Positions 3,298 to 24,068 of a stretch of DNA of 33,441 bases are shown here, piece by piece. Numbering within the stretch: the stretch's first letter is position 1; each line of letters begins with the position of its first letter. The stretch lies in assembly GCA_027486335.1 (NCBI GenBank), contig JAIXPK010000081.1:1-33441 (forward strand), read 5' to 3'. A program made the translations under genes and the position numbers. The DNA comes from Verrucomicrobiaceae bacterium (GTDB lineage Bacteria > Verrucomicrobiota > Verrucomicrobiia > Verrucomicrobiales > V1-33). A model generated the notes under the pieces. That model was not told where the DNA came from. It made no database searches and worked only from the letters and a program-made list of their open reading frames with translations.

Positions 3298-6200
3298 TTA
3301 GTTCGCGTTCTCGCTCACGCGGTAAAAGACCCTTGGCCCGGTCACTGTCGTCAGCGTATCCACGTAGGTGGTCTCGGTTCCCCCGGCTGGCAGAGAGTTG
3401 GTCAGTTCGACCCAGCCACCAGGTTGCCCGCTTGGCAACATCGCAGTGGAGGCCTCGACCGTGTAAGTCCGGCCGACGCGCGAATTGAAGGTCAATTCCA
3501 CCGACGGCGTCGCCCCTGCGAGATAGCGGATGCTGGTAATCTGAAAGATAACCGGCGGTTGACTGATGCTCGCAACACGGAAACCCCAATAGAGGGAATC
3601 GAGCGTCGGGCCGCCGCCGCCGCGGGACGAGGAGTCCAGGCCCTCCTTGGGGCCGCCCGAGTAGCCACCGCGGGCCACGCGACTTTCGTACCCTAAATCA
3701 TTTATCCCATCAAATGCACTCTCCTGCCATTCGCTCACATTCCCGCTCTGCCCCATCGTCCCATACGCACTCAGCCCTCCCGCCAGATTCACATCTGCGG
3801 GTTGGTTTTGGCCATTGTAAACTGCCGTCCCTGGTGCGGTCGCGCTCGCCACCGCTGTCGGGATGCTATTGCTCCCCGTCGCGTAGTCCCAATAGTTCGC
3901 CGTCACCCCGTCATTCTTGTGAAATGCCGCCTTATACCACTCATCCTCGCTCGGCAGAAAGTAATACGCGTCCTTGTGCCGATACAGGTTCTCCCCGCCA
4001 AGCTGCCATGCGTCCACGCTCGCCCACGGCGTCAGCGTCGTCAGCTCAATGTCGAGCTGATACGCCGCATGGTGCCCGGTGCTCGTGTTCAGCCAGTTCA
4101 CAAACGCCGCCGCCTCAAACCACGTTATAAACCTCGCCGGTTGGCTCCCCGTCATCGCTCCCGCCGCCACACCCGACAGCCCGCTCGCCCTCGCCTTCCC
4201 GATCGCATCCTGCGAAATCTCATACGTGCCCATTCGGAACTCATAAGCCACCCCGCCGTAGACCGTGGAGGAGATGCCTCCGCCCGCACCAGCGTCATCC
4301 GCGTTGCCGGCATTGCCGATCGGCACGAAGTCGATGGTGAAGGTATTGTCCCCGGTGCCGAAAGTGTCGGTAAGGATGGCGTCGTAAGTGTACAAGGTGT
4401 TCGCCGCACTGGGGCCGCCGGGGTTGATGACCACGACGCTGGCGGAGCCGACGGTGCCTGGCGGAGTGACGGCGGTGAGGGTGGTGTCATTGACAACGCT
4501 CACGCTGGCAGCGAGGTTGCCGCCGATGGTCACGCCGGTGGCTCCGGTGAAGTTCATGCCGGTGATCATCACGCTGATGCCGCCTGCGGTGTTGCCGCTC
4601 GCGGGATTGATGGCGCTCACGGTGGCGGGGCCGTTGGGATCGAAGTAAGTGAACAAGGTGTTCGCCGCGCTGGGGCCGCCGGGGGTGGTGACCACGACGC
4701 TGGCGGAGCCGACGGTGCCTGGCGGAGTGATGGCGGTGATGGTAGTGGCGTTGACAACACTCACACCCGTGGCTGCGTTGCCGCCGATGGTCACGCCGGT
4801 GGCTCCGGTGATGAAGTTGATGCCGGTGATCGTCACGCTGGTGCCGCCTGCCATCCTGCCGCTCGCGGGATTGATGGCGCTGACGGCGGGGGGGGCGTTG
4901 GGATCGAAGTAAGCGAACAAGGGGTTCGCCGCAATGCCGCCGTAGGGCGTGGTGACCACGACGCTGGCGGAGCCAACGGTGCCTGGCGGAGTGATGGCGG
5001 TGAGGGTAGTGGCGTTGACAACACTCACACCCGTGGCTGCGTTGCCGCCGATGGTCACGCCGGTGACTCCGGTGAAGTTGCTGCCGGTGATCGTCACGCT
5101 GGTGCCGCCTGCCACACTGCCGCTCGCGGGATTGATGGCGCTCACCTTCGGAGGCCGCCACCCACTCGCGACACTCGCGACACGAAAACCAATTGTGGAG
5201 CTGACCGTCGGGTCGGTGCTGCAACCGCCACACGACGACGACAACAAGACGTTGAAGTCGAAGTTCCAGTTCCCGCCGCGCATCCCGCGTGCCGACGATG
5301 GACTGTTGTTCACCAGGTCAGATTCCGTTTCTAAAAATTTCCAGATATTCCCACCCAGTCCCATCACGCCAAAGGGACTTAACCCGCCTGCCCGTGTGAT
5401 ATCGGCAGGACCTTGTTGGAATGCCTGGTTGTACACTGCTGTACCAGCAGCAGTACCGCTGGCGACGGGCATCGGTTGGATGTTGCTGCCCGTGGGATAA
5501 TCATAGTAAGTGCTGGTGTTGGGATCGTAGTACGCCGCCTTGTACCACTCATCGAAGCTCGGCAGGACGTATTGCGCTAGGCTATTGCGAAACAAGTTGT
5601 TCGCGTCGTAGCCCACGTCGCCAGGGGCCCAGAGCGCGATATTGTCGTTCACACCGTTCGTGGTGAACTTGTAGGCCGCTTGAAATCCCTGGCTCGTATT
5701 TAGCCAATTCACGAACCGCGCGGCTTCGTTCCAACTCACTCCCGTGGCGGGACGGTTCGCGCCGTTGCCGCCGAAGGAAGTCATGTCTTGCATCGTGATA
5801 CCTAGGTTGCCACCGCCATTCACAATTGACGCATTCGCTTTGGTGATCATGCCACGGCTGACATCGTACATGCCCATTTGGTAGTTGTAGCCAACCGCAC
5901 CGGCAGGGTTGGGACTGCCCGTCGTGTCAGCCGCGTTACCGGGCGAGCCGATGGGAACGAAGTCGATGGTGAAGGTATTGGCCCCGGTGCCGAAGGTGTC
6001 GGCACGGTAGTAAGTGTACAAGGTGTTCGCCGCGCTGGGGCCGCCGGGGTTGATGACCACGACGCTGGCGGAGCCGACGGTGCCTGCCGGAGTGACGGCG
6101 GTGAGGGTGGTGCCATTGACAACATTCACACCCGTGGCTGCGTTGCCGCCGATGGTCACGGCGGTGGCTCCGGTGAAGTTCATGCCGGTGATCGTCACGC

Positions 6201-7437: not shown

Positions 7438-7660
7438 CGTGGTTGCGGGTAAAGTGGTTGTCCGGGCCCGTTTCCCGCAGGGTCTGAGGCCTGGATGGCC
7501 GGGGGGGCCGGTGACACATGCGCCGTCTGTCCCGGGAAACGATAAAACATTTTGCACTTTCTTTGCCACACCCGTTCTTCAGGGCCTATGCCGCCCAACC
7601 GGATCCTCAAAAAGACCGGTTTTGCTCGCCATTTCCGGCCCGGATCGCATAATCGACGGC
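7438..7660. promoter_or_regulatory. Divergent promoter region between the SUMF1/TIG gene and the sigma/kinase genes
   Basis: This 223-bp spacer must hold promoters in both directions. An inverted repeat AACCGG (7597-7602) / CCGGTT (7616-7621) brackets an A-rich 13-base loop about 40 bp before the sigma gene and could be a regulator site. An A/T-rich patch at about 7540-7565 could serve the minus-strand gene. No clear -35/-10 pair is visible, as might be expected if an alternative sigma factor, perhaps the one encoded next door, reads them. Confidence 0.4.
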
Positions 7661-8251
7661 ATGAGCGATGTCACACGCCTCCTCAGTAACCTAGCCGCCG
7701 GAGACGCGGACTCGTTGAACCGGCTCTACGAGCAGGTCTATGCGGAATTACGGGCCATCGCGCTTCAGAAAATGGCTTCCGAGCGCCCCGGGCATACGCT
7801 GCAACCGACCGCGCTGGTCCATGAAGCTTTCCTTCGGTTGGGAGGCGGGGACCAACTCAAGTTTGACAACCGGGCTCATTTTTTTGCCGCTGCCGCCGAA
7901 GCGATGCGACGGATCCTCGTGGAGAGCGCCCGCCGCCATGGCCGTCTCAAACGCGGCGGCGACCAGGAACGCGTGGAGTGGTGCGAGGACCTCGTCGCCG
8001 CGCCGGTCGATAGTGAAAAACTCCTGCTGGTGGACGAGGCGCTCGATATCCTCGCCCGCGAGGACCCCATGCAGGCGGAGGTGGCGAAGATGCGTTATTT
8101 CGTCGGGCTCAAGCACCAGGAGATCGCCGATGCGCTGGGGGTCAGTGAATCGACCATTCGCAATCACTGGGCCGTGGCCAAAGTCCGGCTGTTCGAGCTG
8201 ATGAGCCCGCAATCCGCCCCGTCGCGTGCGCCTTCCGGGGAAACGCCATGA
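7661..8251 (+). CDS. ECF RNA polymerase sigma factor, PF07638/TIGR02999 type, 196 aa
   Basis: Directs RNA polymerase to a specific promoter set. The region-2 segment TLQPTALVHEAFLRL (about residues 45-59) is typical of the Planctomycetes/Verrucomicrobia/Acidobacteria group PF07638. Region 4 carries a helix-turn-helix, HQEIADALGVSESTIRNHWA, around 150-170. Length is normal and the ATG at 7661 begins the conserved N-terminus. No anti-sigma factor gene is adjacent; instead a membrane Ser/Thr kinase follows on the same strand, a pairing often seen for this group and consistent with control through phosphorylation. The kinase frame can be read back to a GTG at 8226 overlapping this gene, though a later start is preferred. 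Targets could include its own promoter and the divergent SUMF1/TIG gene; this is inference. Confidence 0.93.
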   Translation: MSDVTRLLSNLAAGDADSLNRLYEQVYAELRAIALQKMASERPGHTLQPTALVHEAFLRLGGGDQLKFDNRAHFFAAAAEAMRRILVESARRHGRLKRGGDQERVEWCEDLVAAPVDSEKLLLVDEALDILAREDPMQAEVAKMRYFVGLKHQEIADALGVSESTIRNHWAVAKVRLFELMSPQSAPSRAPSGETP

Positions 8252-8375
8252 GAACTGGAATGGAACCGAGGGCCGGAAAGGCAGAGAGCGGGAGTTTGGC
8301 TGTCCATGGTTTCTTTTGAACCGGAATTATCGTTTTCGGGCAGCGGCGGCGCATGTAGTTCCAACCAGACCAATT

Positions 8376-11300
8376 GTGAAAGACCTCAACGCAATTTATT
8401 GTGCCGCCCGGGAACTCCCCGGGGAAGACCGGCCCGCTTACCTGAACAAGGCCTGTGGGGGCGACCCTCTAATGCAGGCGCGCGTCATGAAAATGCTGTC
8501 CCTCGCCAACGAAGCGGAGGACTTCTTTGAGAGTACGGTGCGCGATCCCTCATCGAAAGGTTGGGAACCGGGGCGCGGCCCTGCCAATATCGATGGACCC
8601 GATGCGCACGACGGCACGGACGAAGTCGTGGGCCAGATGATCGGACGCTACAAAATTCTGGAGCGTCTCGGCGAAGGGGGCTGCGGCGTGGTCTATGTCG
8701 CCGAGCAAACTGAACCGGTGCGTCGGCGCGTAGCGCTGAAAGTCATCAAGCTGGGGATGGACACGAAGGCGGTGGTGGCACGGTTCGAGGCCGAGCGGCA
8801 GGCGCTGGCGATGATGGATCATCCCAACATCGCGAAGGTGCTGGACGGCGGGACCACCGATCACGGCCGTCCTTACTTCGTCATGGAGCTGGTGCGCGGC
8901 ATCCGCATCACCGACTACTGCGACCAGGCCAATCTTCCCCCCAGAGACCGGCTGGATTTGTTCATCAAGGTTTGTCAGGCCATCCAGCACGCGCATCAGA
9001 AAGGAATCATCCACCGCGACATCAAGCCCTCCAACATCCTCGTGACGCTGAACGATGGTGTGCCCGTCCCCAAGGTGATTGATTTCGGCATCGCCAAGGC
9101 GACCGAGGGCCGCCTGACCGATGCGACGATTTACACGCAGTTGCATCAGTTCATCGGCACTCCGGCCTACATGAGCCCGGAGCAGGCGGAGATGAGCAGC
9201 CTGGACATCGATACCCGCAGTGACATCTACAGCCTCGGGGTGCTCCTCTACGAACTGCTGGCCGGCAGCCCTCCGTTTGACGGGAAGGAACTGATGTCGC
9301 TGGGTCTCGACGCGATGCGGAGGACGATCCGGGAGAAAGAGCCGGTCCCGCCGAGCCTTCGGGTGTCGACCTTGCGGGGTGACAATCTCTCCACCACCGC
9401 TAAACGACGGGCGATCGAAGCACCCAGGTTGATCCATCTGCTCAAGGGCGACCTCGACTGGATCGTCATGAAGTGCCTGGAGAAGGATCGTGGACACCGA
9501 TACGAAACTGCCAACGGACTTGCCGCCGACCTGAAACGTTACATGGCGAACGAAGCCGTCGAAGCGAGGCCTCCGTCGGCGACGTATCGGCTGAAAAAGT
9601 TTGTCCTCCGCCACCCGCTCCAGTTAGCGCTCGCGGGGACCGTCGCCTTGCTGCTGCTGGTCGTCGGGGCGGTTGCATGGTGGCGGAATGAGCAGGCCAC
9701 CGCGCAGCGGGAGGCAAATCTCCAACAACAAATCGAGGACGAGCGGCGCCAGGCCGCCGACAACGACCGACTCGCGCGTAACAGCGAGGCCGTGGCCGCG
9801 CTTCTGAACCAGTGCGGAGATGCTCTTAAGGCAGGTGACAGGGCGAGGGCGAACCTCGCCATGGAAGCAGCCAGGAAACGCTCCGCCGAGGGCGGGGCCG
9901 ACCAGCAGACAGATCGAATCAGCCGGCTCGTGGCGGACCTGGATCTGGTGGCAGCACTGGACGCCGTCGATCAGTTCCGCTGGACCTACGTTGACAACCA
10001 CTATCCGGATCCAGCAGTCACCGCGACACGGTCCCGGAAAGCTTTGGAGCAGTTTGGAATCAATCCGGACGCCGTGTCGGTGGACGAAGCCGCAGCGCGG
10101 GTGTCGAAGTCGATGGCCCGCGAACGAATCGTGCCGGCTCTGGACCGGCTGCTGCAACATCAGAAAAACGCCGTCGTGCGGGCCCTGCTGGGCCGGGTGG
10201 ATGCCGATCCATACCGGGATGCCGTCCGGGATGCAGTCCTCGCCGGGGACGAGGGCGGAATCAGGGACCTTGCGGCACAGGACGACGCGTTATTGCAACC
10301 ACCGGGGTTTGCCGTTTTTATGGGCGAGACCAAGGTCATCGACGTAGAGCGCCGGCAGGAACTGTTGCGGGCGGCGTTGAGTCGGCGGACGACCGACGTG
10401 GATCTGCTGATGACGCTGGCGTTTACGTCCGCCTACCCGGCCTATCACCCGAAGAGATTGGCCGATCAGATGCGCTGGCTGCAGGCGGCCCTTGCTGCCG
10501 CACCCGGCAACGTGTCCGCCCACATCGATTTGGGCGCCACCCTGGCGGTCAATAACAATCCGGACGAGGCGATCACCTACCTTAAGAAAGCGATCGAACT
10601 CGATCCCGGGCTCGCCGGTTCACACACCAACATGGGAAACGTTCTCCATGCAAGGGGCCGGTTGAAGGAGGCCGCAGAATCATTCCAAAGAGCAATCGAT
10701 ATCGATCCATATTACGTTAGAGGCCACGTGAACCTCGCTTACACTTTGCTGGTTTCGGGCCGGCGGAAGGAGGGTCTCGAGTGCGCCCGGAAAGCCGTCG
10801 AAATCGCCCCGGACTCCGCCATGGCGCATTCCTGTCTCGGCGCGGCGCTGCAGGGCATGGGCCGCCTGGACGAGGCGGTCGCCTGCCAGCGAAAGGCGAT
10901 CGAACTTGACCCGAACTTTTCCAATGCCCACGCCGCCCTCGGCAGCGCACTGCAGCGCATGGGGCGTTTTGATGAGGCCATCGCCAGCCAGAGAAAGACA
11001 ATCGAAGTCGATCCGGCGTTTCCCAACGCCAGGGCCGACCTCGATAGGACGCTGCGGACCATGGAACAATTGGACGGGGACGTCGCACGTTTTCGCAAGG
11101 CCCTTGAGGAACGCCAGCCGCACGAGCCCGAACCGTACATGAAACTCGGCATCCTCCTCTGCGAGGCCAGGCGGGACTACGACGGAGCCATCCCCTGCTT
11201 CCAGAAGGCCCTCGAACTCGACCCGAAGTCCGCCCGCGCCCACACATGGCTTGGCGCTGCGCTGCATGGACTGGGCCGCTACAGCGAGGCCATCGCCAGC

Positions 11301-12650
11301 TGCCGAAAGGCCATCACCCTCGACCCGAAATATACCGAAGCGCACGTGAAGCTCGCGCTTCTCTCAGGTCTGGCCGCTGCCGAAAAGGCTGCGCCTCCCG
11401 ATCTCGAGGAGCGAATCCGCTTGCGCAAGCAGGCACTCGACTCGCTACGTGAAGCGCAGACTTTGCTAGCTGAACAACTGAACTCCGGCGAACCTGCCCC
11501 GGCGCAGCGCACACTGCGCGAATTGCAGTACGACACCGGCCTGGCCGGCATCCGTGACGCAGCGGCTCTGGCCAAACTCCCGGCAGACGAAAGAAAGGCG
11601 TTCGACCAGGTGTGGACCGACCTGTCACTCCTCCTGAAGAAAGCCGAGTCACTTCAGCCAGGAACAGGCCAGCCCGTCGCCAAAGAGACGTTCGAGCCCC
11701 TTGGCGCCGCTTCCCCAAAGGTACAGACCACCCTTGTGCCTGGCGATTCCACATGGCGCTGGCTGCACCCGGTCGATGGGGTGGACCCGGCGGAAGCCGA
11801 CGCCGACTTCCACACCACATTCTTCACCGCCGGCTACGACGATTCCGGATGGAAGACCGACAAGGACAGCACCAATCCCAACGGCGGCTTCGGCTACGGT
11901 CGCGACTTCGCCGGCGTGGACATCGGAATGCCGGAAGACGAAACCCACCGCCACACCGCCTGGTTTCGCCATCGTTTCACCACAGACAAAGCCCACGCCA
12001 GCCTCGAACTCCGCTGCCAGCGCGACGACGCCCTCATCGTCTATCTCGACGGCAAAGAAGTCCTCCGCGACAACCTCCCGCAAGGTCCGGACGCCTATCT
12101 GCTCTCCGCCACAACCCCGCAGAAACCAGACAACGACGGCGTCGTCCACCGCTTCCAGATCCCCGGCACCCTCGAGCCCGGAGAACACATTCTCGCCATC
12201 TCCGTCCACAATACCGAACTCCCCAGCTCCGACCTTCGCCTCGGCGGCATCACCCTCGTCGAGACCGGAGCGGAAGCGAAACCGCCGCAGGACGGTGGAA
12301 ACCAAGCGCCGGCTCCCACCGCAGCCGGGGACGATCTCAAATCCTTGGAGGAAGCCCTCGAAACCGTGCGCTCAGCCAAAGGTCCGGAAGCGCCGGAAAC
12401 CATCGCCGCGATGACCGCGCTCGCCGCGGCCTATGGCGCGGACGGCAGCGGACGCAAAGCCATCAAGCACGGAGAAGCAGCCCTCGCCCTCGCCCGCCGC
12501 GTCCTGCCCGCCGGAGACCCGAGCACCATCAAGGCGATGAAAGTCCTCATCCCGCTCTACCGCTCCGTGGACCTCGAAGCTGATGCCGCGAAGCTCGAAG
12601 AAGAGCTGAAGGCCCTCCCGGCCCTTGATTCCGCACCCGCGCAGAAGTGA
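8376..12650 (+). CDS. Transmembrane Ser/Thr protein kinase with TPR and beta-sandwich sensor region, 1424 aa
   Basis: Start set at GTG 8376 because the next residues (KDLNAIYCAARELPGEDRPA) match the usual opening of this kinase class; the frame stays open to GTG 8226, inside the sigma gene, but that leader looks non-coding. Hanks-type kinase: P-loop GEGGCG (99-104), lysine K122, catalytic HRD (213-215), DFG (236-238) and GTPAYMSPEQAE, so it should be active. One membrane helix (about 417-438, ALAGTVALLLLVVGAVAWW) puts the remainder outside the cytoplasm: a linker, an array of TPRs (about 690-990) and a domain at about 1120-1300 with YDDSGWKTD and LIVYLDGKEVLRD, resembling galactose-binding-like sandwiches of secreted enzymes. 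A TPR-like tail ends the protein. It likely passes an envelope signal to the partner sigma factor. Leucine codons shift from CTG to CTC near 11.75 kb, where the sandwich domain starts. Confidence 0.92.
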   Translation: MKDLNAIYCAARELPGEDRPAYLNKACGGDPLMQARVMKMLSLANEAEDFFESTVRDPSSKGWEPGRGPANIDGPDAHDGTDEVVGQMIGRYKILERLGEGGCGVVYVAEQTEPVRRRVALKVIKLGMDTKAVVARFEAERQALAMMDHPNIAKVLDGGTTDHGRPYFVMELVRGIRITDYCDQANLPPRDRLDLFIKVCQAIQHAHQKGIIHRDIKPSNILVTLNDGVPVPKVIDFGIAKATEGRLTDATIYTQLHQFIGTPAYMSPEQAEMSSLDIDTRSDIYSLGVLLYELLAGSPPFDGKELMSLGLDAMRRTIREKEPVPPSLRVSTLRGDNLSTTAKRRAIEAPRLIHLLKGDLDWIVMKCLEKDRGHRYETANGLAADLKRYMANEAVEARPPSATYRLKKFVLRHPLQLALAGTVALLLLVVGAVAWWRNEQATAQREANLQQQIEDERRQAADNDRLARNSEAVAALLNQCGDALKAGDRARANLAMEAARKRSAEGGADQQTDRISRLVADLDLVAALDAVDQFRWTYVDNHYPDPAVTATRSRKALEQFGINPDAVSVDEAAARVSKSMARERIVPALDRLLQHQKNAVVRALLGRVDADPYRDAVRDAVLAGDEGGIRDLAAQDDALLQPPGFAVFMGETKVIDVERRQELLRAALSRRTTDVDLLMTLAFTSAYPAYHPKRLADQMRWLQAALAAAPGNVSAHIDLGATLAVNNNPDEAITYLKKAIELDPGLAGSHTNMGNVLHARGRLKEAAESFQRAIDIDPYYVRGHVNLAYTLLVSGRRKEGLECARKAVEIAPDSAMAHSCLGAALQGMGRLDEAVACQRKAIELDPNFSNAHAALGSALQRMGRFDEAIASQRKTIEVDPAFPNARADLDRTLRTMEQLDGDVARFRKALEERQPHEPEPYMKLGILLCEARRDYDGAIPCFQKALELDPKSARAHTWLGAALHGLGRYSEAIASCRKAITLDPKYTEAHVKLALLSGLAAAEKAAPPDLEERIRLRKQALDSLREAQTLLAEQLNSGEPAPAQRTLRELQYDTGLAGIRDAAALAKLPADERKAFDQVWTDLSLLLKKAESLQPGTGQPVAKETFEPLGAASPKVQTTLVPGDSTWRWLHPVDGVDPAEADADFHTTFFTAGYDDSGWKTDKDSTNPNGGFGYGRDFAGVDIGMPEDETHRHTAWFRHRFTTDKAHASLELRCQRDDALIVYLDGKEVLRDNLPQGPDAYLLSATTPQKPDNDGVVHRFQIPGTLEPGEHILAISVHNTELPSSDLRLGGITLVETGAEAKPPQDGGNQAPAPTAAGDDLKSLEEALETVRSAKGPEAPETIAAMTALAAAYGADGSGRKAIKHGEAALALARRVLPAGDPSTIKAMKVLIPLYRSVDLEADAAKLEEELKALPALDSAPAQK

Positions 12651-13206: not shown

Positions 13207-13956
13207 CTACCGCTTCGATTTCGGCTTCCGCCCATTCTCGACGACCAGAGCCCCGACAAAACCTTCCGGCAAGGGAACCTCGTGGATTTCCCAACATACG
13301 GCCTCGACATCTGCCCCAGGCAACCGCAGCAACTCCGCAGGCATCCCCGGAGCAAACGTGAACTCAATGTCCGAAATCTCATCGGTCAATCCTTCGCCAG
13401 TCGCCTTCAGATACGCTTCCTTGCGGGTCCAACCTGCGAAAAATGCCAGCTCCTGCTGCTCCGGCGGCAAAGCGAGCACCCCGCCCAACTCGCTGGCCGA
13501 AAAAACCCGCTCGGCAATCAACGGCCAATCCACCGTCCGCCCTGTCCATTCGACATCGATTCCCACTTCCCGTCCTTTGGCCAGCGCAATCGCCACCAGT
13601 GAGTTGGAATGAGCAAGATTGAATCGAATATCACCCACGGCGGAACCGCTGATCAACCGCGGCTTGCCGCGCGCTTCATACCCAATCGCAACCTCCGTCG
13701 GATCAACTCTCAAGGATCTTCCCAGAAGAAGTCGCAGCAACGCCCGCCCGAAAACAAACTCATTCCGCGCTTCCATCCCCATAAAACGCTCGGCCCGCAA
13801 TCGCTCTCGTCCGTCAAGCAACCGGGCATAGGCCGACATCTCCGCCGAATCGCCAGGCACCGTAGCAAGCCAAACCTGGACATCCTCGTTTCCCGGTGCC
13901 ACCGGTTTTGGATTCCAGGTGGCGATGTCCTTCCACTCATGACATGTGATTCGCAT
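13207..13956 (-). CDS. 4'-phosphopantetheinyl transferase, Sfp type, 249 aa
   Basis: Moves the phosphopantetheine arm from coenzyme A to the serine of carrier domains, converting them to the active holo form. The family's motif blocks are present: GKPRL then FNLAHS (113-117 region), GIDVEW (132-137, with the magnesium-binding acidic residues), and FAGWTRKEAYLKATGEGL (173-190, containing the W-x-x-KEA-x-x-K signature). Length is typical of Sfp/Gsp enzymes and longer than AcpS. The ATG at 13956 lies 45 bp after the NRPS stop on the same strand, so it is very likely co-transcribed. Expected clients are the three carrier serines in this operon: one in the ligase-carrier protein and two in the NRPS. 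Confidence 0.93.
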   Translation of the reverse strand: MRITCHEWKDIATWNPKPVAPGNEDVQVWLATVPGDSAEMSAYARLLDGRERLRAERFMGMEARNEFVFGRALLRLLLGRSLRVDPTEVAIGYEARGKPRLISGSAVGDIRFNLAHSNSLVAIALAKGREVGIDVEWTGRTVDWPLIAERVFSASELGGVLALPPEQQELAFFAGWTRKEAYLKATGEGLTDEISDIEFTFAPGMPAELLRLPGADVEAVCWEIHEVPLPEGFVGALVVENGRKPKSKR

Positions 13957-14001: not shown

Positions 14002-17000
14002 CTATCCGGCATTGGATAGTACCACCTCAATTGACTTGACGAGTGATTCAATGTTTGTGGCTTCTAACATTGTTTCGTGCGTGCCGGATACATGGTGGAT
14101 GCTGACACCGCCATGAGCCATCTGTCTCCAGAAGGCATAAGGGCTTTTCGTCGATGTTTTGGCCGCGAAGAAATCGACGTGGCCGGAATAGACCTTCGGT
14201 CGGTAGAGTGCCGACGCCACTTCGTAGTAGTCCGGCTGGTCCTCTTGCTGAATATCCCGGTTGGATTCCGTGGGCAATTGCGTTCGTAAACGTTTGCGCA
14301 AAACAAAATAACTTAACGCGTTCCAACGACCGAGGAAATATTGGCCGCGCTCGGCCAGCGGCAATTCGCGCCAATGCCTAAGGTGGACTCCGAACCTCTT
14401 ACGAAGATGGGGGAGCAGCATCCAGAGATAGTGTTTCAGTGAGACATGAGAGGTCGCCTGGGTGTCTAACAATCCGAGAAAAGCTACGGTTCCGCCCTCG
14501 CTGCTCAATTCCTGAGCCACGGCGTAAGCGATCCAGCCGCCGAGAGAAAAGCCCGCAAGGTGATACGGACCTTCCGGTTGCAGGGAACGGATTTCCCGGG
14601 CGTAATGCCGTGCCATTTCCTCCACGCTGGTGTGGCGAGGTGCACGCCCATCCAGACCCACCGCCTGCACCCCGTAGATCGGACGATCATTTTTCATCGT
14701 CCGGGCCAAATCCAGGAAGACGTAAACATCCCCGCCCCGGCCATGAATCAGAAACAGCGGCGGTTTCGAACCCGACGGCTGCAATGGCACCAGTGAACTC
14801 CACGCCGGTGCCCAATTGTCATCAGTGAGCCGACGGGCAAAAGAAGCAATCGTCGGCGATTGGAACAATGTCGCTATCGGAATCTTCCGATCCAGAAGCT
14901 TCTCAATCTCCGAAGCCAATCTGGCAGCTTGAAGCGAATGTCCGCCGAGGTCGAAGAAATTGTCATTGCGACCGATGCCTGATCTTTGAAAGAGCCGTTC
15001 CCAGATTCGAATCAGTTCATGTTCGAGAAGGCTTCTTGCTTGATCCGATGGTTGGGCATCTTTGGAGGGATTCTGATCGGGTGCTGGCAATTTGCTGCGA
15101 TCCACTTTGCCATTGGGCGTCAGGGGTAACTGGTCCAGCCATACAAAGGCACTAGGCAGCATGTATTCCGGCAGCGTGGAACAAAGCCGCGCCCGCAGGC
15201 TGGCCGGGTCAGCCTGCGGTGACGCCATACCCACCAAATAGGCGAACAATTGTTTGTCCCCGGATTTTGCTTCGTTCACAACCACCACCGCGTCAGAGAC
15301 CCCAGGGCAACAACGAAGCGCGTGCTCAATCTCCCCCAATTCAATCCTATATCCGCGGATCTTTACCTGATGATCGAAACGTCCCAGGAATTCGATGGTC
15401 CCATCGGGCCGCCAGCGTGCGAGATCCCCGGTTTTATAAAGGCGCGCCTGGGGATCCCTGCTGAAAGGATCGGCGACAAACTTTTCTTGTGTAAGCTCAG
15501 GCGCGTTCAGGTAGCCGCGCGCCAGACCATCCCCGCCCGCGTGAAGTTCACCCGCCACTCCCGGCGGCACCGGCTCGCCTTGCTTGTCCAGGATGTAAAC
15601 AGTCGTCCCTGCAATCGGACGGCCAATGGGCACTGAAGCGCCGACTTGCGACGCCTCGTCGAGCACGCCACAACAGGTGAAGGTGGTGTTTTCAGTCGGG
15701 CCATAGCCATTGATGAGCCGGCCGTGTCCCGGCATCTCCAGATAGTCGCGCACCCTGGCGGGCGACAACACATCACCACCGGCCAGCAATTGCCGCACTC
15801 CCGCAAGGGCCGATGGTTGTAGTTCCACCATTTGGTGAAACAAAGCCGCTGTCAGCCAAAGCGTGGTTACCCCGTGCCCCGTGATGGCACTTCCAAGCTC
15901 GGCGAGGTCGAATGACTCGCTTGGGGGCAAAACCAATTTCGCTCCATTGAGCAGACTGCCCCAGATTTCGAATGTCGAGGCATCGAACGAAATCGGCGCG
16001 AATTGCAGCAGCACGTCAGCGGGTCCCAATTCGACATAATCAGCATCGACCACCAGACGGACAATCCCTCGGTGCGGCACCATCACGCCTTTGGGCTTGC
16101 CGGTGGTACCCGAAGTAAACATCACGTAGGCCAGATCCCCGGGTTTGTTGGTGGATGGCAAGTCTGATGAATCCGATCCTTCCAGACTTTCCAATAGATC
16201 TTCCAGTCCCAGGACTTGTCCGCCCAGCGAGGATTCTCCCGCCAAAGAAAAAATATGATCCCGCCACTGACGCTGGCAGAGAACCAAGGGGGCGTTAACA
16301 TCGTGCAATAGCACGCGGAGCCGCTCAAAAGGCAGTTTCGGATCCAGTGGCACATACGCGCCACCCGCCTTCAGGATCCCGAGCAAGGCGACGATCATTT
16401 CCACCGAACGTTCGGTGCAAAGTCCCACCGGCACATCAGGAGCCACCCCGAGAGATCGCAGATGATGCGCCAATCGATTCGCCCGGAAGTTGACTTCCTG
16501 ATAGCTCAGGCAGACGTCGCCGCACTGCAGCGCCACCGCTTCAGGGGCACGATTCACTTGTTCCTCAAAAATCTGATGCACGCACTTGTCACGCGGATAG
16601 CTCCTTCCGGTCTGGTTCCATTCCACCAGAATTCGGTGCCTTTCCGAATCCGGCATCAGACGTAACTGATCGATGGGTTTCTGCGGGGCTTCGGCAATCG
16701 CCTCCAGCATCTCCTTCAGATGCCCGGCCATCCGCCCGGCCTCCTCTTGCGTGAAGATGTCGCAGGCATATTCCAATTGGCAGTCCCAGCCCTGCTCCGA
16801 TGCCATCACGCTGAAGATCAAATCACACTTGCTGGTGTGGTTGTGCATCGGAACCAGGTAACCCTTTACTCGGTCGAGGATCAATTGGGGCAGAACCTGC
16901 TCCAAAAAAACAAACATCACCTGGTGTAAAGGCTGGGAATGAGCCTCGCGCTCCTTGACCGCGAGTTCCACCATCTCTTCAAAGGGAAGTCGCGCATGGT

Positions 17001-20000
17001 CGAAGGCATCAAGAACAGTTTGCCGCACCTGCCGCAAAATCTCTTTGAAACCCTGGTGGCCCTTCATCCTGCAGCGGATGGGCAAGGTATTGAGGAAGAA
17101 CCCGATGAGGTTCTGGAATTCCCTTCTTTCCCGCCCGGTGATTGGCGTGGCCACCACCAGGTCGTCTTGGCCGGTGAAGCGGTACAACCAAACCTGGTAG
17201 GCAGCCAGCGCGGTCATGAAGGAGGTCGCATTCTCCTCACGTGACAGAACATTGAGCCTCGCCGCCACCTCACCGGCGAGTCGAAAAGATTGGATAGCAC
17301 CCCGGCCGCTTCGATGAAGCGGTTTTGGAATATCGCAGCGAAGATCCAAATCCGATGGCAAATCCCGGAGTTGTTCGCTCCAAAAATCCCTTTGAGCCTC
17401 CATCTCCCGACCTCTCAGTCGTTCCCGCTGCCAGATGGCAAAATCAGCATACTGCATCGGCAATTCCGGCAACCCCGCCGATTCCTCGTTTCCATCGGCA
17501 TGGTAAAGGCAGCTTAACTCCTGAAAAAGCAGCCTCAACGACCACTCATCCATGATGCTGTGATGGAAAGTGCACGCGAGCACCTGATCATCCTCCGCCA
17601 ACTGGATCCAGAGGATCCTCCACAGGGGTGCCTCGGCCAGATCGAAGGCTCGGCGCGCCTCCTCTTCCAGGACTTGCTGCATTACGGACGCCTGCTCCGG
17701 GATCGCGCTGGAACGCAAGTCCACCTCTCGCCAAGGCAGGGGAAAATCTTTCGCGTCGGCCACTCGCTGCACCAGATCTTCCCCCTGTTTCACTAACGCC
17801 GCCCGCAACACCTCATGGCGCTCTAAAATCACACGCAAGGATCCCCGCACACACTCCCGATTCACACGGCCAGAAAGGCGGACGGCTTTCGGGACATTGT
17901 ATGCCGCCGGATCCGGCAGCATCTGCTGCAGCAACCACATCCCCTGTTGGGCAAAGGACATTGGAAAAGGTCCCTGCCGGTCGGCTCTCCGAATTGGCTC
18001 GCTGCCTTTCAAATCGCGGCCGCAAAGCAGGGATTCAATCCGTTCAGATAGACTTTCAATGGTGGGATTGTCAAAAATCCATCGCAGGGGGATCTCGAGA
18101 TTGAGCAAATGCTTTACCCTCGAGCAGATCGCCACTGCCAGTAGGGAGTGTCCCCCAAGATGGAAGAAGTTGTCGTGGATGCCCACCCGCTCACGGCGCA
18201 GCGCTGTTTGCCAGATTTCGACCAGCGCTCGCTCCGGTTCATTGCGAGGGGCGACATAGCCTGCTTCCACAACTTCCAATTCTACCCCTTCCAGCCGCTC
18301 CAAGGCGCTCCGATCCACCTTTCCGCCCGGTGTCAGGGGGAAAGCGGGAACCATCAGGAAGCGCGATGGGATCATATGATCCGGCAGTTTTTCCTCCATG
18401 AAACGGCGCATTCGCCGATCTGCCGGATCGAAGTTGCCATCCACCACAAGATAGGCCGCCAGGCACTTGCCTCCGGTCGCGGCAGCATTTGCCAACACCA
18501 CGGCTTGTCGCACTCCGGCACAGGTCGCCAGCAATCTCTCAATCTCTCCAAGCTCGATGCGATAGCCGCGGATCTTCACCTGATAGTCCACTCGCCCGAG
18601 AAACTCGATAGTTCCGTCCGGCAACCATTTTCCGCGATCTCCCGATTTGTAGCAACGATCTTCTGGACCGCACCCAAACGGATCGGCTACAAAACGCGCG
18701 GACGTTTCGTCCGGGCGGTTCAGATACCCTCGCGCCACACCCTCACCACCAAGAAGCAATTCCCCCGGCACTCCAACACCCACTCGGCGCATTTGCGGAT
18801 CGACCACATAAACCCGGGCGTTTGGCAGTGGACGACCCAAGGGCACCGTCGTCTGGTGGTGCGCGGGACGCGGATGTTCAATTTCATGCGCCAGCACGCC
18901 CACGGTCGTCTCTGTCGGACCGTAGTGATTGATGATCCGACATTCCGGCGCCATTTTCTGGATCCGCTCCAGCATCCTCCAACTCGATGATTCGCCGCCC
19001 AGCACCAGGACACGCCGCGGGATCAGGTCGGGCGCCTGCCCCGGCGAGACCGACTGGAGCAGCATCTCCAGATGCGAAGGCACGATTTTAACCACATCAA
19101 TGGTCTTGCTGCGGAAGTAGCTTGCCAACGCGTTGGGATTGGTACCCCGTTCCCGGGAAATGACGTGCAACGCTCCTCCTGTGACCAAAGAGGGAAACAA
19201 TACTGTGTGCCCAAGATCCGTGGCAAAGGACGAAACCATCGCATAGCGCAAAGCCGACGGCAAAGACAGTCGCTCGACAATCCCGTTGACGTAGTTGACC
19301 AGGTGTCGATGCTCAATGAGCACCCCCTTGGGCCGCCCTGTCGAACCAGAAGTGAAAATGGCGTAGGCCAGATTCGCCGACCCAACGCCGCTAAACGGAT
19401 TCGTGGAGTTTTCGCTGGCAAGGCTTGGCCAGTCCGTATCGAGGTTGAATATTGGTGGGAGCCTCATTGACAGGTGCTCCACCATTGCCGATCGCGTTAT
19501 CAGAACTGTCGGATTGGTTTCCTCGATCATCGCTTTCAGGCGATCGGGCGGGCAAGTCGCATCAAGCGGCACATAGCCACCGCCAGCCTTCAGGATGCCA
19601 AGCAATCCCACCACGAGCTCAAGCGAGCGCTCGGCAAAAAGGACGACCAGTTTTTCCGGGCCTACACCAAGTCCACGCAAGTGGTGCGCTAGCTGGTTGG
19701 CCCGGGAATTGAGTTCCAGGTAAGTCAGCGATTGATCCTCGAACACTACCGCCACCGCGTCCGGAGTGCGTTCCACCTGCGCCTCGAACAACTGGTGAAC
19801 GCCCTTGTCACGCGGATACTCCCGCTCGGTCTGATTCCATTCCACCAGAGGTTGCTGCGGTTCTTGCGCAGAAAGCTCTGGGATATCCGCAAGAAGTTGC
19901 CCGGGATCGCTGGCGATGCTTTCGAGCAACACATGCCAACGTCCCAGCATTCGCACCACGCGGTCGGCGTCAAAAAGGTCGGTGTTATATACCGCCGTGG

Positions 20001-21372
20001 CCATCCATCCGGCGCTGACCTTCTCCACCGCGAGGGAGAAATCGAACTTGGCGGTGTGTGTCTCGGTTCTCCAGGGCGCGGTCAGGATACCGGGTAATTC
20101 TAGCGACACCGCGGGAAAATCCTGCAAGGCGAAGGTTACATCAAATAGCTTGGCTGCACCCGCGTCGCGGCGGAGTTGCAACAGTTCCACGAGCCGCTCA
20201 AACGGCATATCCTGATGGGCATATGCCTGAACAGCGGCCTCCTTCACGCGGCTTAACACTTCTCGGAAGGTGGGTTGGTCGGCCAGGCTCGTGCGCATGA
20301 CCAGGGTGTTGACGAAAAATCCGACGAGAGCCTCGACCTCCACACGCTGGCGGTTGGCAATGGGCACGCCGACCAGAAGATCCTCTCGACCGGTATAACG
20401 GTGCAGCAAGACTTTAAACGCGGCCAGCAGGATCATGAAGAGGGTTGCGCCCTCCTCCCGTGCCCGTGCCATGAGCCTCGCAGTGAGTTCGGAATCAAGG
20501 TGAATCTCAGCCCGGGCCCCTCGAAAGGATTCTTTTGACGGACGGGGTCGGTCTGATGGCAGATTCAATGGTTCCAGTTCGCCCGCGAGTTGTGCCTTCC
20601 AGTATTCGGCCTGCTTCTCAAAAACACCGCCGGACAACTGGCCCTCCTGCCACGCGGCATAGTCCACGAACTGCACGGGCAGCGGTGGCAACGGCATCCC
20701 AATCCCGGCGGCGCGTGCCGCGTAGCAGCCGCCCACCTCCCGCCAGAGATTGGAACGCGACCAACCGTCCGAGATGATGTGGTGCAAGACGAAGCACAAC
20801 ACATGTTCTTCCGGTCCGAGGCGGGCCAAAGCCACCCGGAAGCCGGGGGCCGCCGCCAGATCGAACGTGCGGCTCGCCACCTCCTCCAAATAGCGATTGG
20901 CCGCCGCCGACCGCTCGGTCTCGGGCACTGCCTGGAAGTTCTCTGCTTCGAAAGCAAACTCCGCACCCGATGCGACATACTGGAGTAGTTGCTCGCCTGC
21001 CATGACAAAAGTTGTCCGCAAGGTGTCGTGGCGGCGCACCACATCGGACACCGCACCTAGCAACAACTCCTCGTCCAAGGGGCCGATTAGGTGAAACGAT
21101 GATGGAATCACATAGACCGGCAACCGCTCCGAATACTCGTGCAAAAACCACATCCGTTGCTGGCTGTGAGAAGCGGGATAAACCGTGACTTGCCCGGTGG
21201 GTTCGTTTGGTCGGCCGAATGCCTCCGTCCGCAGGGGAACGGCGGGCACCATGGCCAGATACTCGGAGGAGACGGCGGCATCGCGACCGGCGGCGAGTCT
21301 TTGATCTAGCAACGCGCGTTGTTTGGGGCTCAGACGGGCAAGCCGTTCTCTCAGGTCCGTCGCTTCGCTCAT
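14002..21372 (-). CDS. Two-module nonribosomal peptide synthetase C-A-T-C-A-T-TE, 2456 aa
   Basis: Start ATG 21372 overlaps the upstream stop as ATGA, so translation is probably coupled; the frame extending to 21519 lies inside the upstream gene. Order: N-terminal helix (SEATDLRERLARLSPKQRAL), C1 with HHIISDG at 197-203, A1 with TSGSTGRPKG near 670, T1 (LGGHSL near 1071), C2 with HHSIMDE at 1270-1276, A2 with TSGTTGKPKG near 1750, T2 (LGGHSL near 2141), and a type I thioesterase with GFSLGG near 2275 and GTHE near the end. Ungapped alignment to GrsA as remembered gives pocket codes DLTKVGHVGK for A1 (nearest the Asp codes) and DAFWLGGTFK for A2 (nearest Val). No epimerase or methyltransferase domain, so L residues are expected. 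Beginning with a C domain implies an acyl donor from upstream, probably the ligase-carrier protein. C2 has Glu in place of the usual Gly in HHxxxDG. Confidence 0.96.
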   Translation of the reverse strand: MSEATDLRERLARLSPKQRALLDQRLAAGRDAAVSSEYLAMVPAVPLRTEAFGRPNEPTGQVTVYPASHSQQRMWFLHEYSERLPVYVIPSSFHLIGPLDEELLLGAVSDVVRRHDTLRTTFVMAGEQLLQYVASGAEFAFEAENFQAVPETERSAAANRYLEEVASRTFDLAAAPGFRVALARLGPEEHVLCFVLHHIISDGWSRSNLWREVGGCYAARAAGIGMPLPPLPVQFVDYAAWQEGQLSGGVFEKQAEYWKAQLAGELEPLNLPSDRPRPSKESFRGARAEIHLDSELTARLMARAREEGATLFMILLAAFKVLLHRYTGREDLLVGVPIANRQRVEVEALVGFFVNTLVMRTSLADQPTFREVLSRVKEAAVQAYAHQDMPFERLVELLQLRRDAGAAKLFDVTFALQDFPAVSLELPGILTAPWRTETHTAKFDFSLAVEKVSAGWMATAVYNTDLFDADRVVRMLGRWHVLLESIASDPGQLLADIPELSAQEPQQPLVEWNQTEREYPRDKGVHQLFEAQVERTPDAVAVVFEDQSLTYLELNSRANQLAHHLRGLGVGPEKLVVLFAERSLELVVGLLGILKAGGGYVPLDATCPPDRLKAMIEETNPTVLITRSAMVEHLSMRLPPIFNLDTDWPSLASENSTNPFSGVGSANLAYAIFTSGSTGRPKGVLIEHRHLVNYVNGIVERLSLPSALRYAMVSSFATDLGHTVLFPSLVTGGALHVISRERGTNPNALASYFRSKTIDVVKIVPSHLEMLLQSVSPGQAPDLIPRRVLVLGGESSSWRMLERIQKMAPECRIINHYGPTETTVGVLAHEIEHPRPAHHQTTVPLGRPLPNARVYVVDPQMRRVGVGVPGELLLGGEGVARGYLNRPDETSARFVADPFGCGPEDRCYKSGDRGKWLPDGTIEFLGRVDYQVKIRGYRIELGEIERLLATCAGVRQAVVLANAAATGGKCLAAYLVVDGNFDPADRRMRRFMEEKLPDHMIPSRFLMVPAFPLTPGGKVDRSALERLEGVELEVVEAGYVAPRNEPERALVEIWQTALRRERVGIHDNFFHLGGHSLLAVAICSRVKHLLNLEIPLRWIFDNPTIESLSERIESLLCGRDLKGSEPIRRADRQGPFPMSFAQQGMWLLQQMLPDPAAYNVPKAVRLSGRVNRECVRGSLRVILERHEVLRAALVKQGEDLVQRVADAKDFPLPWREVDLRSSAIPEQASVMQQVLEEEARRAFDLAEAPLWRILWIQLAEDDQVLACTFHHSIMDEWSLRLLFQELSCLYHADGNEESAGLPELPMQYADFAIWQRERLRGREMEAQRDFWSEQLRDLPSDLDLRCDIPKPLHRSGRGAIQSFRLAGEVAARLNVLSREENATSFMTALAAYQVWLYRFTGQDDLVVATPITGRERREFQNLIGFFLNTLPIRCRMKGHQGFKEILRQVRQTVLDAFDHARLPFEEMVELAVKEREAHSQPLHQVMFVFLEQVLPQLILDRVKGYLVPMHNHTSKCDLIFSVMASEQGWDCQLEYACDIFTQEEAGRMAGHLKEMLEAIAEAPQKPIDQLRLMPDSERHRILVEWNQTGRSYPRDKCVHQIFEEQVNRAPEAVALQCGDVCLSYQEVNFRANRLAHHLRSLGVAPDVPVGLCTERSVEMIVALLGILKAGGAYVPLDPKLPFERLRVLLHDVNAPLVLCQRQWRDHIFSLAGESSLGGQVLGLEDLLESLEGSDSSDLPSTNKPGDLAYVMFTSGTTGKPKGVMVPHRGIVRLVVDADYVELGPADVLLQFAPISFDASTFEIWGSLLNGAKLVLPPSESFDLAELGSAITGHGVTTLWLTAALFHQMVELQPSALAGVRQLLAGGDVLSPARVRDYLEMPGHGRLINGYGPTENTTFTCCGVLDEASQVGASVPIGRPIAGTTVYILDKQGEPVPPGVAGELHAGGDGLARGYLNAPELTQEKFVADPFSRDPQARLYKTGDLARWRPDGTIEFLGRFDHQVKIRGYRIELGEIEHALRCCPGVSDAVVVVNEAKSGDKQLFAYLVGMASPQADPASLRARLCSTLPEYMLPSAFVWLDQLPLTPNGKVDRSKLPAPDQNPSKDAQPSDQARSLLEHELIRIWERLFQRSGIGRNDNFFDLGGHSLQAARLASEIEKLLDRKIPIATLFQSPTIASFARRLTDDNWAPAWSSLVPLQPSGSKPPLFLIHGRGGDVYVFLDLARTMKNDRPIYGVQAVGLDGRAPRHTSVEEMARHYAREIRSLQPEGPYHLAGFSLGGWIAYAVAQELSSEGGTVAFLGLLDTQATSHVSLKHYLWMLLPHLRKRFGVHLRHWRELPLAERGQYFLGRWNALSYFVLRKRLRTQLPTESNRDIQQEDQPDYYEVASALYRPKVYSGHVDFFAAKTSTKSPYAFWRQMAHGGVSIHHVSGTHETMLEATNIESLVKSIEVVLSNAG

Positions 21373-22220
21373 GAATGGATCCGGTTCAGGCTGCGGTTCA
21401 GAACCTCGTTGCACGCTGCCAGGGTATCTCCCTTTGCCACCGCCGATGCTAACGATCCATCCGCCACGATGAGATTGGCCAAGGCGTTCCTCACCGCAGA
21501 TTGTGCCGCGAAGAGACATGGGGTGCTGTAAATGACCAGACTGGCACCATTATCCCCGAGTTCCTCCAGACGGCATACGGGAGACTTGCCACCGGCAATT
21601 TGGTTGAAAACCACAGGGCAATCCACCAGCGATTTGATTTCCTTGAGTACTTCGAGCGAACGGATGCCATCTGCCAAAACTGCGTCGGCGCCGGCCTCGC
21701 GGAAGGCAACCACCCGGCGCCTGATATCATCCAAGTCTGTGGCATCGGTGCGGGCCACGACAAACAATTCCCGGCGACAGGCTAAAACCGCCCGCAATTT
21801 CTCCAGATATTCATCCAGCGGCAAGATCTGTTTTCCATCCATGTGTCCACACCGGCGGGGGCGGGCTTGGTCCTCAAGAACGACCCCACAGGCTCCGATG
21901 CGTTCCAGCGATTTGGCAACATGGCAGGCGACGGCGGTGTCGCAGTAACCATCGTCGATGTCCACCAGCAGATGTTGGTATGGCAAAACCGCCCTCACCC
22001 GGCCGACAAAATCCAGCAGGTCGGACCATGCGATGAACCCCTCGTCGGGCAGCCCGTAGTGGCTGGCGGAAAACCCGAATCCGCTGATGAACAGGGCGTC
22101 ATGGGTTTCCGCCGCCAGCAAGGCACTGAAAACATCATAGACACCAATGAACGGAACCAGATCCCCACGTTTGAGGCGCTGACGCAACGTCTTTCCTTTC
22201 GATGAATCCAAAGTGTCCAT
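21369..22220 (-). CDS. Isocitrate lyase/PEP mutase superfamily enzyme, 283 aa
   Basis: TIM-barrel enzyme of the family that includes methylisocitrate lyase, oxaloacetate acetylhydrolase, dimethylmalate lyase and PEP mutase; members make or break C-C or C-P bonds beside a carboxylate using Mg2+. Visible signatures: FISGFGFSASHYGLPDEG near 44-61 (substrate loop), VDIDDGY near 86-92 (metal site), and EDQARPRRCGHMDGK near 115-129. The RRCGH loop with its cysteine is the lyase type. PEP mutase instead has EDK followed five residues later by NS, so phosphonate formation is unlikely. The ATG at 22220 lies 3 bp after the ligase gene stop, and the stop overlaps the NRPS start (ATGA), so all are one transcript. 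It may supply the acid loaded by the ligase or alter the acyl group. Exact substrate unknown. Confidence 0.88.
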   Translation of the reverse strand: MDTLDSSKGKTLRQRLKRGDLVPFIGVYDVFSALLAAETHDALFISGFGFSASHYGLPDEGFIAWSDLLDFVGRVRAVLPYQHLLVDIDDGYCDTAVACHVAKSLERIGACGVVLEDQARPRRCGHMDGKQILPLDEYLEKLRAVLACRRELFVVARTDATDLDDIRRRVVAFREAGADAVLADGIRSLEVLKEIKSLVDCPVVFNQIAGGKSPVCRLEELGDNGASLVIYSTPCLFAAQSAVRNALANLIVADGSLASAVAKGDTLAACNEVLNRSLNRIHS

Positions 22221-22223
22221 AAA

Positions 22224-24068
22224 TTAATCGAGCAATTTTGCGCGCTCCTCGGCACTCAGACGCTCCAGGGCTTTTGCCAGGTCATCGAGTTCTTTTTCCG
22301 CCTGAATACGCTCCAGTTCGGAGGCAAGCAGGGCAGGGGTCGGCATTCGGAATAGCAGAGGTGTCGGCAGTTCAAGCGACAGGCTCCGACCTAGCCGGGT
22401 GAGCACTTGAGTGGCACGCAGGGAATCTCCACCAAGCATAAAAAAATTGCCCTGCCTTCCGGCCGGCGGGCAACCGAGCACCTCGCTGAACATGTCCACC
22501 ACACGCTTTTCCATGGGTGATGCCGGTTCTTCATACGCGGTTGCTAAAAACGCACCCAACTGCCGGGCCAAACCGATGCGCTGGATCTTTCCCGTGGAGC
22601 CTCTTGGAATGTCCGGCACTACGATAATCCGGCTCGGGGCTTTGAAGGCCGGCAATCGATCAAGCACAAAACCCCTTAAGTCCGCTTCCGTGCAGTCAGC
22701 GCCCGGGTGCAATACAACAGCAGCGACCACATCCTCGCCCAGCGATGGGTGAGGGACGGCGAATGCTACCGCTTGCCGAACCATGGGATGAGCCAGCAAT
22801 GCCTCATCCACCTCACGGGGAGCTAATTTTTCTCCGCCGCGGTTGATCATTTCTTTCAGTCTTCCGGTGATAAAAAGATAGCCGTCCGCATCAAAGAAGC
22901 CTTGGTCACCGGTGCGCAACCAACCCAGATGGAACGCCTGGGCGTTGGCTTCGGGATTCCCATGGTAGCCGGGGGTCACATTTTCACCACGGATGGCAAT
23001 TTCACCAGTGATTCCAGCTTCCATCTGATCCCCCGCTTCATCCAAAACGGCGATAGCAGGACCAGCGGGAAGCCCCACACAACCGGGTTTTCGGAGGCGC
23101 GGTGGCAAAGGGTTGCTGGCCATCTGGTGAGCAGCTTCCGTCATGCCATAGGATTCGATCACCGGCACCTGGAAAAGATTCTCAAGACCCATCATCACTG
23201 ATGGAGGCAACGCGGCAGATGAAGACCTTATGAAACGGAGGCTGCTTTCGATGGTGGATCGGCCTTGGCCTTGCAAATGCGCCAGAATCGCCTGATGCAT
23301 CGTCGGCACCGCGGAATACCAGGTCGGTTTCCAGGTTTCCAGCCAACCGGGAAAATCGTCCGCGTTAAAACCCGTGGTGCAAATCGTGCCGCCACCCGCC
23401 GCCAGCGATGCCAGCACACAAGCCACTAGGCCATGGATGTGGAAAAGCGGCATTACATTGAGGCAAAGGTCCGATTCCGACAGTTCCAAGGTGCTCCCGA
23501 TATTCCGGGCCGATGCGCAAAGATTTCTCTGGGTGAGGGGAACCATCTTCGGGCGCGAGGTCGTGCCCGAGGTATGCAGCACGAGAGCCACATCATCTGC
23601 TTCGGCAAGGCCGGGTTGCGCGGCCCCGGTGCCGGGAGTGCCGGAAAGATCAAAACTCCCGTTGGGCCGCAGGGCTAGCTCAATCACAGGCACCCCGAGC
23701 GCAGTGGCCGCCGAGCGGGCCGGTGTTTCATCCCCCACCATCACGATGAGGCTCTTTGCCCGCAAGTCCCCGAGATAAAAGGCGAACTCTTTCTCCAAAT
23801 AGGCAGGGTTGAGAGGCGCGGCGATCGCCACGCAGGCGACAGCCAGAAAAGCCACCGCCAGCTCGGGTCCCTGCGGCAACACGATGGCAACCCGGTCGCC
23901 TCGGCCGATGCCAAGGTAGTTCATCTGCTCCAGCGTCCGGTGAACTTGCTCCCAAAGCATCTGGTGGCTGAGCGGTTCGACACCCTCGCTGGCAATGGCC
24001 TGTCTGGAGGTATATCGAGCCGCGTTTTTCGCGAGCAAAGCGGGGATTGAGCAGTCGCCTTCTGTCAT
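22224..24068 (-). CDS. Acyl-AMP ligase fused to a carrier protein (oxalyl-CoA ligase-like), 614 aa
   Basis: Probably activates a carboxylic acid with ATP and loads it on its own carrier domain, giving the starter for the NRPS. The ANL core has LHTSGTTSRPK (163-173), WYSAVPTMHQ, RFIRSSSA, ESYGMTEAAHQMASNPLP and GRLKEMINRGGEK, ending with a C-terminal lysine in STGKIQR. These phrases are almost those of the AAE3/Pcs60 oxalyl-CoA ligase group as I remember it, and unlike amino-acid A domains. A carrier domain follows, with attachment serine in LGGDSL (about 544-549), then a terminal helix ALERLSAEERAKLLD resembling the N-terminus of the NRPS. First gene of the operon: ATG 24068 has 185 bp of upstream spacer. 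Oxalate as substrate is inferred from similarity only; other small dicarboxylic, keto or acyl acids are possible. Confidence 0.93.
   Translation of the reverse strand: MTEGDCSIPALLAKNAARYTSRQAIASEGVEPLSHQMLWEQVHRTLEQMNYLGIGRGDRVAIVLPQGPELAVAFLAVACVAIAAPLNPAYLEKEFAFYLGDLRAKSLIVMVGDETPARSAATALGVPVIELALRPNGSFDLSGTPGTGAAQPGLAEADDVALVLHTSGTTSRPKMVPLTQRNLCASARNIGSTLELSESDLCLNVMPLFHIHGLVACVLASLAAGGGTICTTGFNADDFPGWLETWKPTWYSAVPTMHQAILAHLQGQGRSTIESSLRFIRSSSAALPPSVMMGLENLFQVPVIESYGMTEAAHQMASNPLPPRLRKPGCVGLPAGPAIAVLDEAGDQMEAGITGEIAIRGENVTPGYHGNPEANAQAFHLGWLRTGDQGFFDADGYLFITGRLKEMINRGGEKLAPREVDEALLAHPMVRQAVAFAVPHPSLGEDVVAAVVLHPGADCTEADLRGFVLDRLPAFKAPSRIIVVPDIPRGSTGKIQRIGLARQLGAFLATAYEEPASPMEKRVVDMFSEVLGCPPAGRQGNFFMLGGDSLRATQVLTRLGRSLSLELPTPLLFRMPTPALLASELERIQAEKELDDLAKALERLSAEERAKLLD

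Follow-up and report, generated by a model that had tools for sequence, protein, structure and literature searches.

Oxalate is activated by oxalate-CoA ligases such as Arabidopsis AAE3, the grass pea oxalyl-CoA synthetase (OCS), and yeast Pcs60, two of which have been reported to be strictly oxalate-specific (PMC9485241). An AAE3-type activation followed by the transfer of the oxalyl group to an amine yields β-N-oxalyl-L-α,β-diaminopropionic acid (β-ODAP, dencichine), which is natural in grass pea and has been produced in Escherichia coli by an engineered, CoA-based pathway combining an oxaloacetate hydrolase (OAH), an AAE3-type ligase, and an acyltransferase (PMC9485241). Among nonribosomal peptide synthetases (NRPSs), stand-alone adenylation-carrier (A-T) starters, including those loading dihydroxybenzoate (DHB) or salicylate and the EntE-EntB fusion (4iz6), donate a carboxylic acid in trans to condensation-adenylation-carrier (C-A-T) modules. 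A published oxalyl-primed NRPS was not found in the literature searched, in a search that was not complete. Here, contig JAIXPK010000081.1 of a Verrucomicrobiaceae bacterium (assembly GCA_027486335.1) was analyzed; this whole stretch of 33,441 bases is referred to as the window, and it belongs to a fragmented genome of 5.8 Mb that is 93% complete. The window carries a four-gene operon that we read as an oxalyl-primed NRPS making an oxalate-capped Asp-Val peptide, with a probability of roughly two in three.

The four genes were intact and open on the minus strand in the order of a predicted starter-loading A-carrier didomain (614 amino acids; positions 22224-24068), a lyase of the isocitrate lyase/phosphoenolpyruvate (ICL/PEP) mutase superfamily (283 amino acids; 21369-22220), an NRPS (14002-21372), and a Sfp-type 4'-phosphopantetheinyl transferase (PPTase; 13207-13956; Pfam ACPS and AASDHPPT_N), and they form an apparent operon. 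The didomain and lyase genes were separated by a 3-base gap, and the lyase and NRPS genes overlapped by ATGA. The listed open reading frame of the NRPS opens at 21519, but the ATG at 21372 (MSEATDLRERL) is the one that overlaps the lyase stop codon and is likely the true start. A PPTase gene was also located 3' of the NRPS gene in four related clusters (L018, L019, L022, and L083). The preliminary description of this DNA, which dealt with the two A domains of the NRPS, left out the didomain, the lyase, and the PPTase.

The didomain was composed of Pfam AMP-binding, AMP-binding_C, and PP-binding domains, with the peptidyl carrier protein (PCP) at about 22320-22505. Its four top solved relatives were all oxalate-CoA ligases, namely Arabidopsis AAE3 (421 bits), the grass pea enzyme (412 bits), and yeast Pcs60 (360 and 270 bits), and the next-best family scored 211 bits. 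The identity was approximately 43% to AAE3 and 40-43% to the plant oxalate-CoA ligases. An AlphaFold model of the didomain (predicted local distance difference test [pLDDT] score of 83) was led in a Foldseek search by 5ie3, 5ie2, 5ie0, 6qjz, and 8aff, with oxalate-CoA ligase structures first. In addition, His214, Ser289, and His319 in the AAE3 numbering, which we take to be the oxalate-binding pocket of that enzyme, were retained in the didomain. They were likewise present without exception in the 62 stand-alone homologues and in the 19 close carrier-fused homologues that could be read. The distant carrier-fused homologues L014 and L015 differed at these residues, as did further ligases and A domains encoded in this genome. 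The didomain thus shares the adenylation fold and the His/Ser/His pocket with the oxalate-CoA ligases, whereas its fusion to a PCP and its position in an NRPS operon set it apart, and the predicted acceptor is the phosphopantetheine of the carrier, not CoA. On these grounds it appears to combine oxalate activation with a carrier in one protein. It resembles the DHB- and salicylate-type starters in forming an A-carrier pair that would act in trans, but its predicted unit is oxalate and not an aryl acid, and a dedicated lyase is included in the operon.

The lyase (Pfam PEP_mutase/ICL) contained the catalytic loop EDQARPRRCGH, which agrees with the EDQxxxxRCGH pattern of the lyase branch and holds the catalytic Cys in RRCGH, so that the CGH sequence expected of an OAH was present. 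Its identity to OAH was 34%, with approximately 32-34% to OAH and the petal death protein. Ser232 of the lyase was aligned with the Ser of the solved OAH 3lye and the petal death protein 1zlp. In this column, Pro was found in methylisocitrate lyase (MICL) 9hra, 2,3-dimethylmalate lyase (DMML), carboxyphosphoenolpyruvate (CPEP) mutase, and four paralogues from other genomes with carrier fusions, and Cys was found in MICL 3eoo. A passage of PMC3256194, citing Joosten et al., describes a marker serine that is restricted to oxalate-producing fungal OAHs. We infer that the Ser232 column is the column of this marker, and the lyase is predicted to be an OAH converting oxaloacetate to oxalate and acetate. 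It has the catalytic CGH loop and the marker serine in common with OAH and the petal death protein of the same superfamily, but it is bacterial and sited within an NRPS operon.

Other functions of the superfamily were considered and rejected. The lyase lacked the EDKxxxxxNS sequence of the PEP mutase of the phosphonate pathway and scored 71.7 against TIGR02320 (cut-off, 319.6). Its scores for methylisocitrate lyase (PrpB), with a role in the methylcitrate cycle, and for carboxyvinyl-carboxyphosphonate phosphorylmutase were 156.5 bits (cut-off, 354.4) and 117.6 bits (cut-off, 420.05), respectively, and it was far under the curated cut-off for phosphonopyruvate hydrolase. It was the only member of the family found in the genome, and no further copies were found at E ≤ 1e-55 among 388 genomes of the phylum.

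The NRPS had the domain order C-A1-T1-C2-A2-T2-TE, where TE is a type I thioesterase (Pfam, two Condensation, two AMP-binding, two PP-binding, and one Thioesterase). Pfam and motif scans showed intact C, A, T, and TE core motifs of a modular type I NRPS, with the exception of C2. C1 (19852-21186; Pfam, alignment, and motif scan) was intact with HHIISDG at 20764-20787. T1 (18046-18249) carried FFHLGGHSL, and T2 (14827-15018) carried FFDLGGHSL (Pfam and motif scan for both). C2 was assigned to 16660-17994 by alignment and motif scan, and TE to 14026-14760 by Pfam and motif scan, with GFSLGG at 14536-14553. Since the NRPS opens with a complete C domain, an acyl donor is needed.

In order to read the pockets of A1 (18295-19809) and A2 (15082-16599), both were aligned with GrsA PheA by MAFFT, using a reference segment identical to residues 226-526 of PDB 1amu and code positions 235, 236, 239, 278, 299, 301, 322, 330, 331, and 517. 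The pocket segments were free of gaps and gave DLTKVGHVGK for A1 and DAFWLGGTFK for A2. Both ten-residue codes had been proposed in the preliminary description from an ungapped alignment with GrsA, and they were borne out with no shift of the pocket residues; all eight peptides quoted there were found in the minus-strand open reading frame, at 18898-19224 for A1 and 15679-15987 for A2. The A1 code, then described as Asp-like, was identical to that of the characterized Asp A domain of tistrellabactin, the product of which contains β-hydroxy-Asp (PMC10391617). The A2 code, then described as close to published Val codes, was identical to that listed for the Val A domain of malacidin MlcM (PMC9113097). 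These exact matches make chance an unlikely source of both codes. The assembly lines and products of malacidin and tistrellabactin differ from those considered here. In a 2025 survey, DLTKVGHVGK was found on Asp and Asn domains alike, with Asp in the majority (PMC12283262), and Asn is the less likely substrate of A1. The same two codes were present in the sister genome L018, in which the A domains were 90-93% identical. Neither an epimerase domain (Pfam scan) nor the dual C/E motif HH[IL]xxxxGD (motif scan) was found in the NRPS, in agreement with the earlier statement that no epimerase domain is present. The two pockets are therefore best read as Asp then Val, probably both as L residues. The earlier proposal of L-Asp followed by L-Val thus stands as an order of pockets but not as a complete product, because C1 needs a donor and the upstream starter module was overlooked.

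An uncapped L-Asp-L-Val or a cyclic dipeptide, with upstream genes that are unrelated or serve to detoxify oxalate, would agree with the sound codes of A1 and A2, both of which are ordinary amino-acid A domains. This explanation is highly improbable, since C1 is complete with HHIISDG and the upstream genes are on the strand of the NRPS gene, with the ATGA overlap and the 3-base gap. Furthermore, the ligase homologue is fused to a carrier that is needless for detoxification, and the arrangement recurs across phyla.

In the proposed oxalyl-primed pathway, the lyase would cleave oxaloacetate to oxalate and acetate. The didomain would convert oxalate and ATP to oxalyl-AMP and then to an oxalyl thioester on its own carrier. 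C1 would pass the oxalyl group from this upstream carrier to Asp loaded on T1 by A1, and C2 would couple oxalyl-Asp to Val loaded on T2 by A2. TE would free N-oxalyl-L-Asp-L-Val or a cyclized form, and the PPTase, the last gene of the operon, would activate the three carriers. The engineered dencichine pathway provides a laboratory precedent for this oxalyl chemistry, with CoA in place of the carrier. Like the predicted pathway, the β-ODAP route involves AAE3-type activation, transfer of the oxalyl group to an amine and, in its engineered form, oxalate derived from oxaloacetate. On the other hand, it employs CoA and a BAHD acyltransferase where a carrier and a C domain are predicted here.

To collect relatives of the operon, genome contigs were scanned using the didomain as the query. 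The nearest named relative was L018, a Verrucomicrobiaceae bin from a pond metagenome, with a didomain 96% identical to that of the window. Carrier-fused homologues were found in Verrucomicrobiota, Acidobacteriota, Pseudomonadota, Chloroflexota, Myxococcota, Planctomycetota, Bacillota, and a cyanobacterial bin; several of the contigs are metagenome bins, the phylum labels of which are only as reliable as the binning. The fusions thus extended to at least seven phyla beyond Verrucomicrobiota, and nearly all of them adjoined C, TE, or, in three cases, oxalyl-CoA-decarboxylase-like genes. Most were followed by C-A-T(-TE). A triad of didomain, lyase, and NRPS with an intact lyase, 57% identical to that of the window, was present in a gammaproteobacterium (L022). 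According to our reading of the alignment, the downstream pockets differed, being Val/Ile-like in L023, β-Ala-like in L079, and Pro-like in the distant L014. This variation suggests that the predicted oxalyl starter is what the clusters have in common. In a tree of oxalate-ligase homologues, the carrier-fused sequences were placed apart from nearly all of the stand-alone enzymes; the deep support was weak, and a single origin of the fusion is therefore not claimed. In four proteins (L027:9932-12604, L051:8870-11389, L064:9995-12619, and L087:1513-4149), a TE was fused with the oxalate-ligase-like domain and the carrier in the same protein, with no C domain; these proteins are possibly free-standing units of oxalyl transfer or release.

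The three oxalyl-CoA-decarboxylase-like genes adjoining carrier-fused ligases encode thiamine pyrophosphate (TPP) enzymes (L022:16998-18746, L025:2274-3827, and L029:11925-13640). Those of L022 and L029 matched oxalyl-CoA decarboxylase/2-hydroxyacyl-CoA lyase best, and that of L025 was likewise similar. Such neighbors would be anticipated for a carrier loaded with oxalyl, and oxalyl bound in this way could act as a donor of one-carbon units. The three clusters also give some ground for supposing that the loaded oxalyl group is decarboxylated before or after transfer, giving formyl-Asp-Val. Here this outcome seems very doubtful, since the window has no oxalyl-CoA-decarboxylase-like gene; in the 93% complete genome itself, no oxalyl-CoA decarboxylase was found, only a TPP homologue with 26% identity.

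It is also conceivable, but unlikely, that the didomain activates another small acid produced by the C-C cleavage of the lyase, such as glyoxylate, malonate, or a short keto or hydroxy acid, and that the cap is not oxalyl. Sequence is a poor guide to activity in either superfamily, and identities of approximately 43% (didomain to AAE3) and 34% (lyase to OAH) are modest. Against this, the pocket and the residues around it do not differ from those of the stand-alone oxalate-CoA-ligase homologues, and the marker serine and the TPP partners each independently indicate oxalyl chemistry.

Several observations weigh against the oxalyl-primed NRPS. In L018, the lyase gene (L018:11849-12421) lacked the catalytic segment through an in-frame deletion of 279 bp relative to 21369-22220 of the window. 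Direct repeats of 11 bp (CAAATCGCTGG in the window) enclosed the deletion, which left the overlap with the synthetase gene unharmed. A different in-frame shortening had produced a lyase remnant of 116 amino acids in L019:11076-11426 and L020:2077-2307. These two soil contigs, which were binned separately and belong to a second verrucomicrobial lineage, carried the remnant in nearly the same form. The synthetases were intact in the lineages with a shortened lyase, and most of the related clusters were without such a lyase. It follows that the system can do without the lyase or that those lineages obtain oxalate otherwise, and its loss in two related lineages suggests that this helper is replaceable by another oxalate source. 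The AlphaFold model of the lyase was built from two sequences only and had a pLDDT of 70, and the fold search did not separate OAH from MICL. In C2, HHSIMDE (17545-17568) replaces HHxxxDG; this acidic change is common to relatives (HHSIEDE in L019 and HHSIFDE in L024). Moreover, the role given to His214, Ser289, and His319 of AAE3 is assumed from the structure of that enzyme. What the sequence shows is the order of domains and genes, the gene overlap, both codes, the kinship of the didomain to oxalate-CoA ligases, its pocket residues, and the marker serine of the lyase; every substrate, the donation of the oxalyl group in trans to C1, the form in which the product is released, and the stereochemistry beyond the absence of an epimerase domain are predicted. 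The lyase deletions in L018 and in L019 and L020 could also mean that the cluster is undergoing decay in this lineage or is not expressed. This is quite improbable given that all four genes of the window are intact and open and that conservation of the didomain and the synthetase between the window and the sister genome L018 is 88-96%.

The Asp/Val pockets are in themselves ordinary, and the new element is the predicted oxalate starter on a modular NRPS. If this prediction is true, oxalate is a starter unit unreported for peptide synthetases in the literature searched. By a narrow balance, we favor the broader view that the clusters represent an undescribed, phylum-spanning class of assembly lines primed with oxalate. 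A carrier-captured oxalate-CoA-ligase domain would feed C-A-T modules that make N-oxalyl amino acids or peptides, possibly 2-oxoglutarate mimics or metal chelators. Some clusters would have their own OAH; in others, a TPP enzyme would decarboxylate the oxalyl group held on the carrier, leaving a one-carbon unit. Inhibition of 2-oxoglutarate-dependent oxygenases is a property of N-oxalyl amino acids, N-oxalylglycine among them, and oxalyl peptides could therefore be bioactive. The AAE3-carrier fusion is a simple signature for genome mining, and pocket codes read alone can overlook the most unusual unit of a product. Since one host of a carrier-fused homologue, the acidobacterium Bryocella elongata DSM 22489 (L023), is in culture, the claim is directly testable.

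Elsewhere in the same genome, other NRPS pieces were present, namely a C-A-T-TE beside a PPTase on contig C57 (L016) and a T-A fragment ending contig C384 (L017). The operon was flanked by genes for a 1423-amino-acid protein with a formylglycine-generating-enzyme (FGE)-sulfatase domain and at least five IPT/TIG repeats (window 3298-7569, minus strand) and a 1474-amino-acid Ser/Thr kinase with many TPR repeats (8226-12650, plus strand). A DUF6288 protein with HEAT repeats (26479-28932, minus strand) adjoined a sialic-acid-esterase-type (SASA) protein and a sulfatase.

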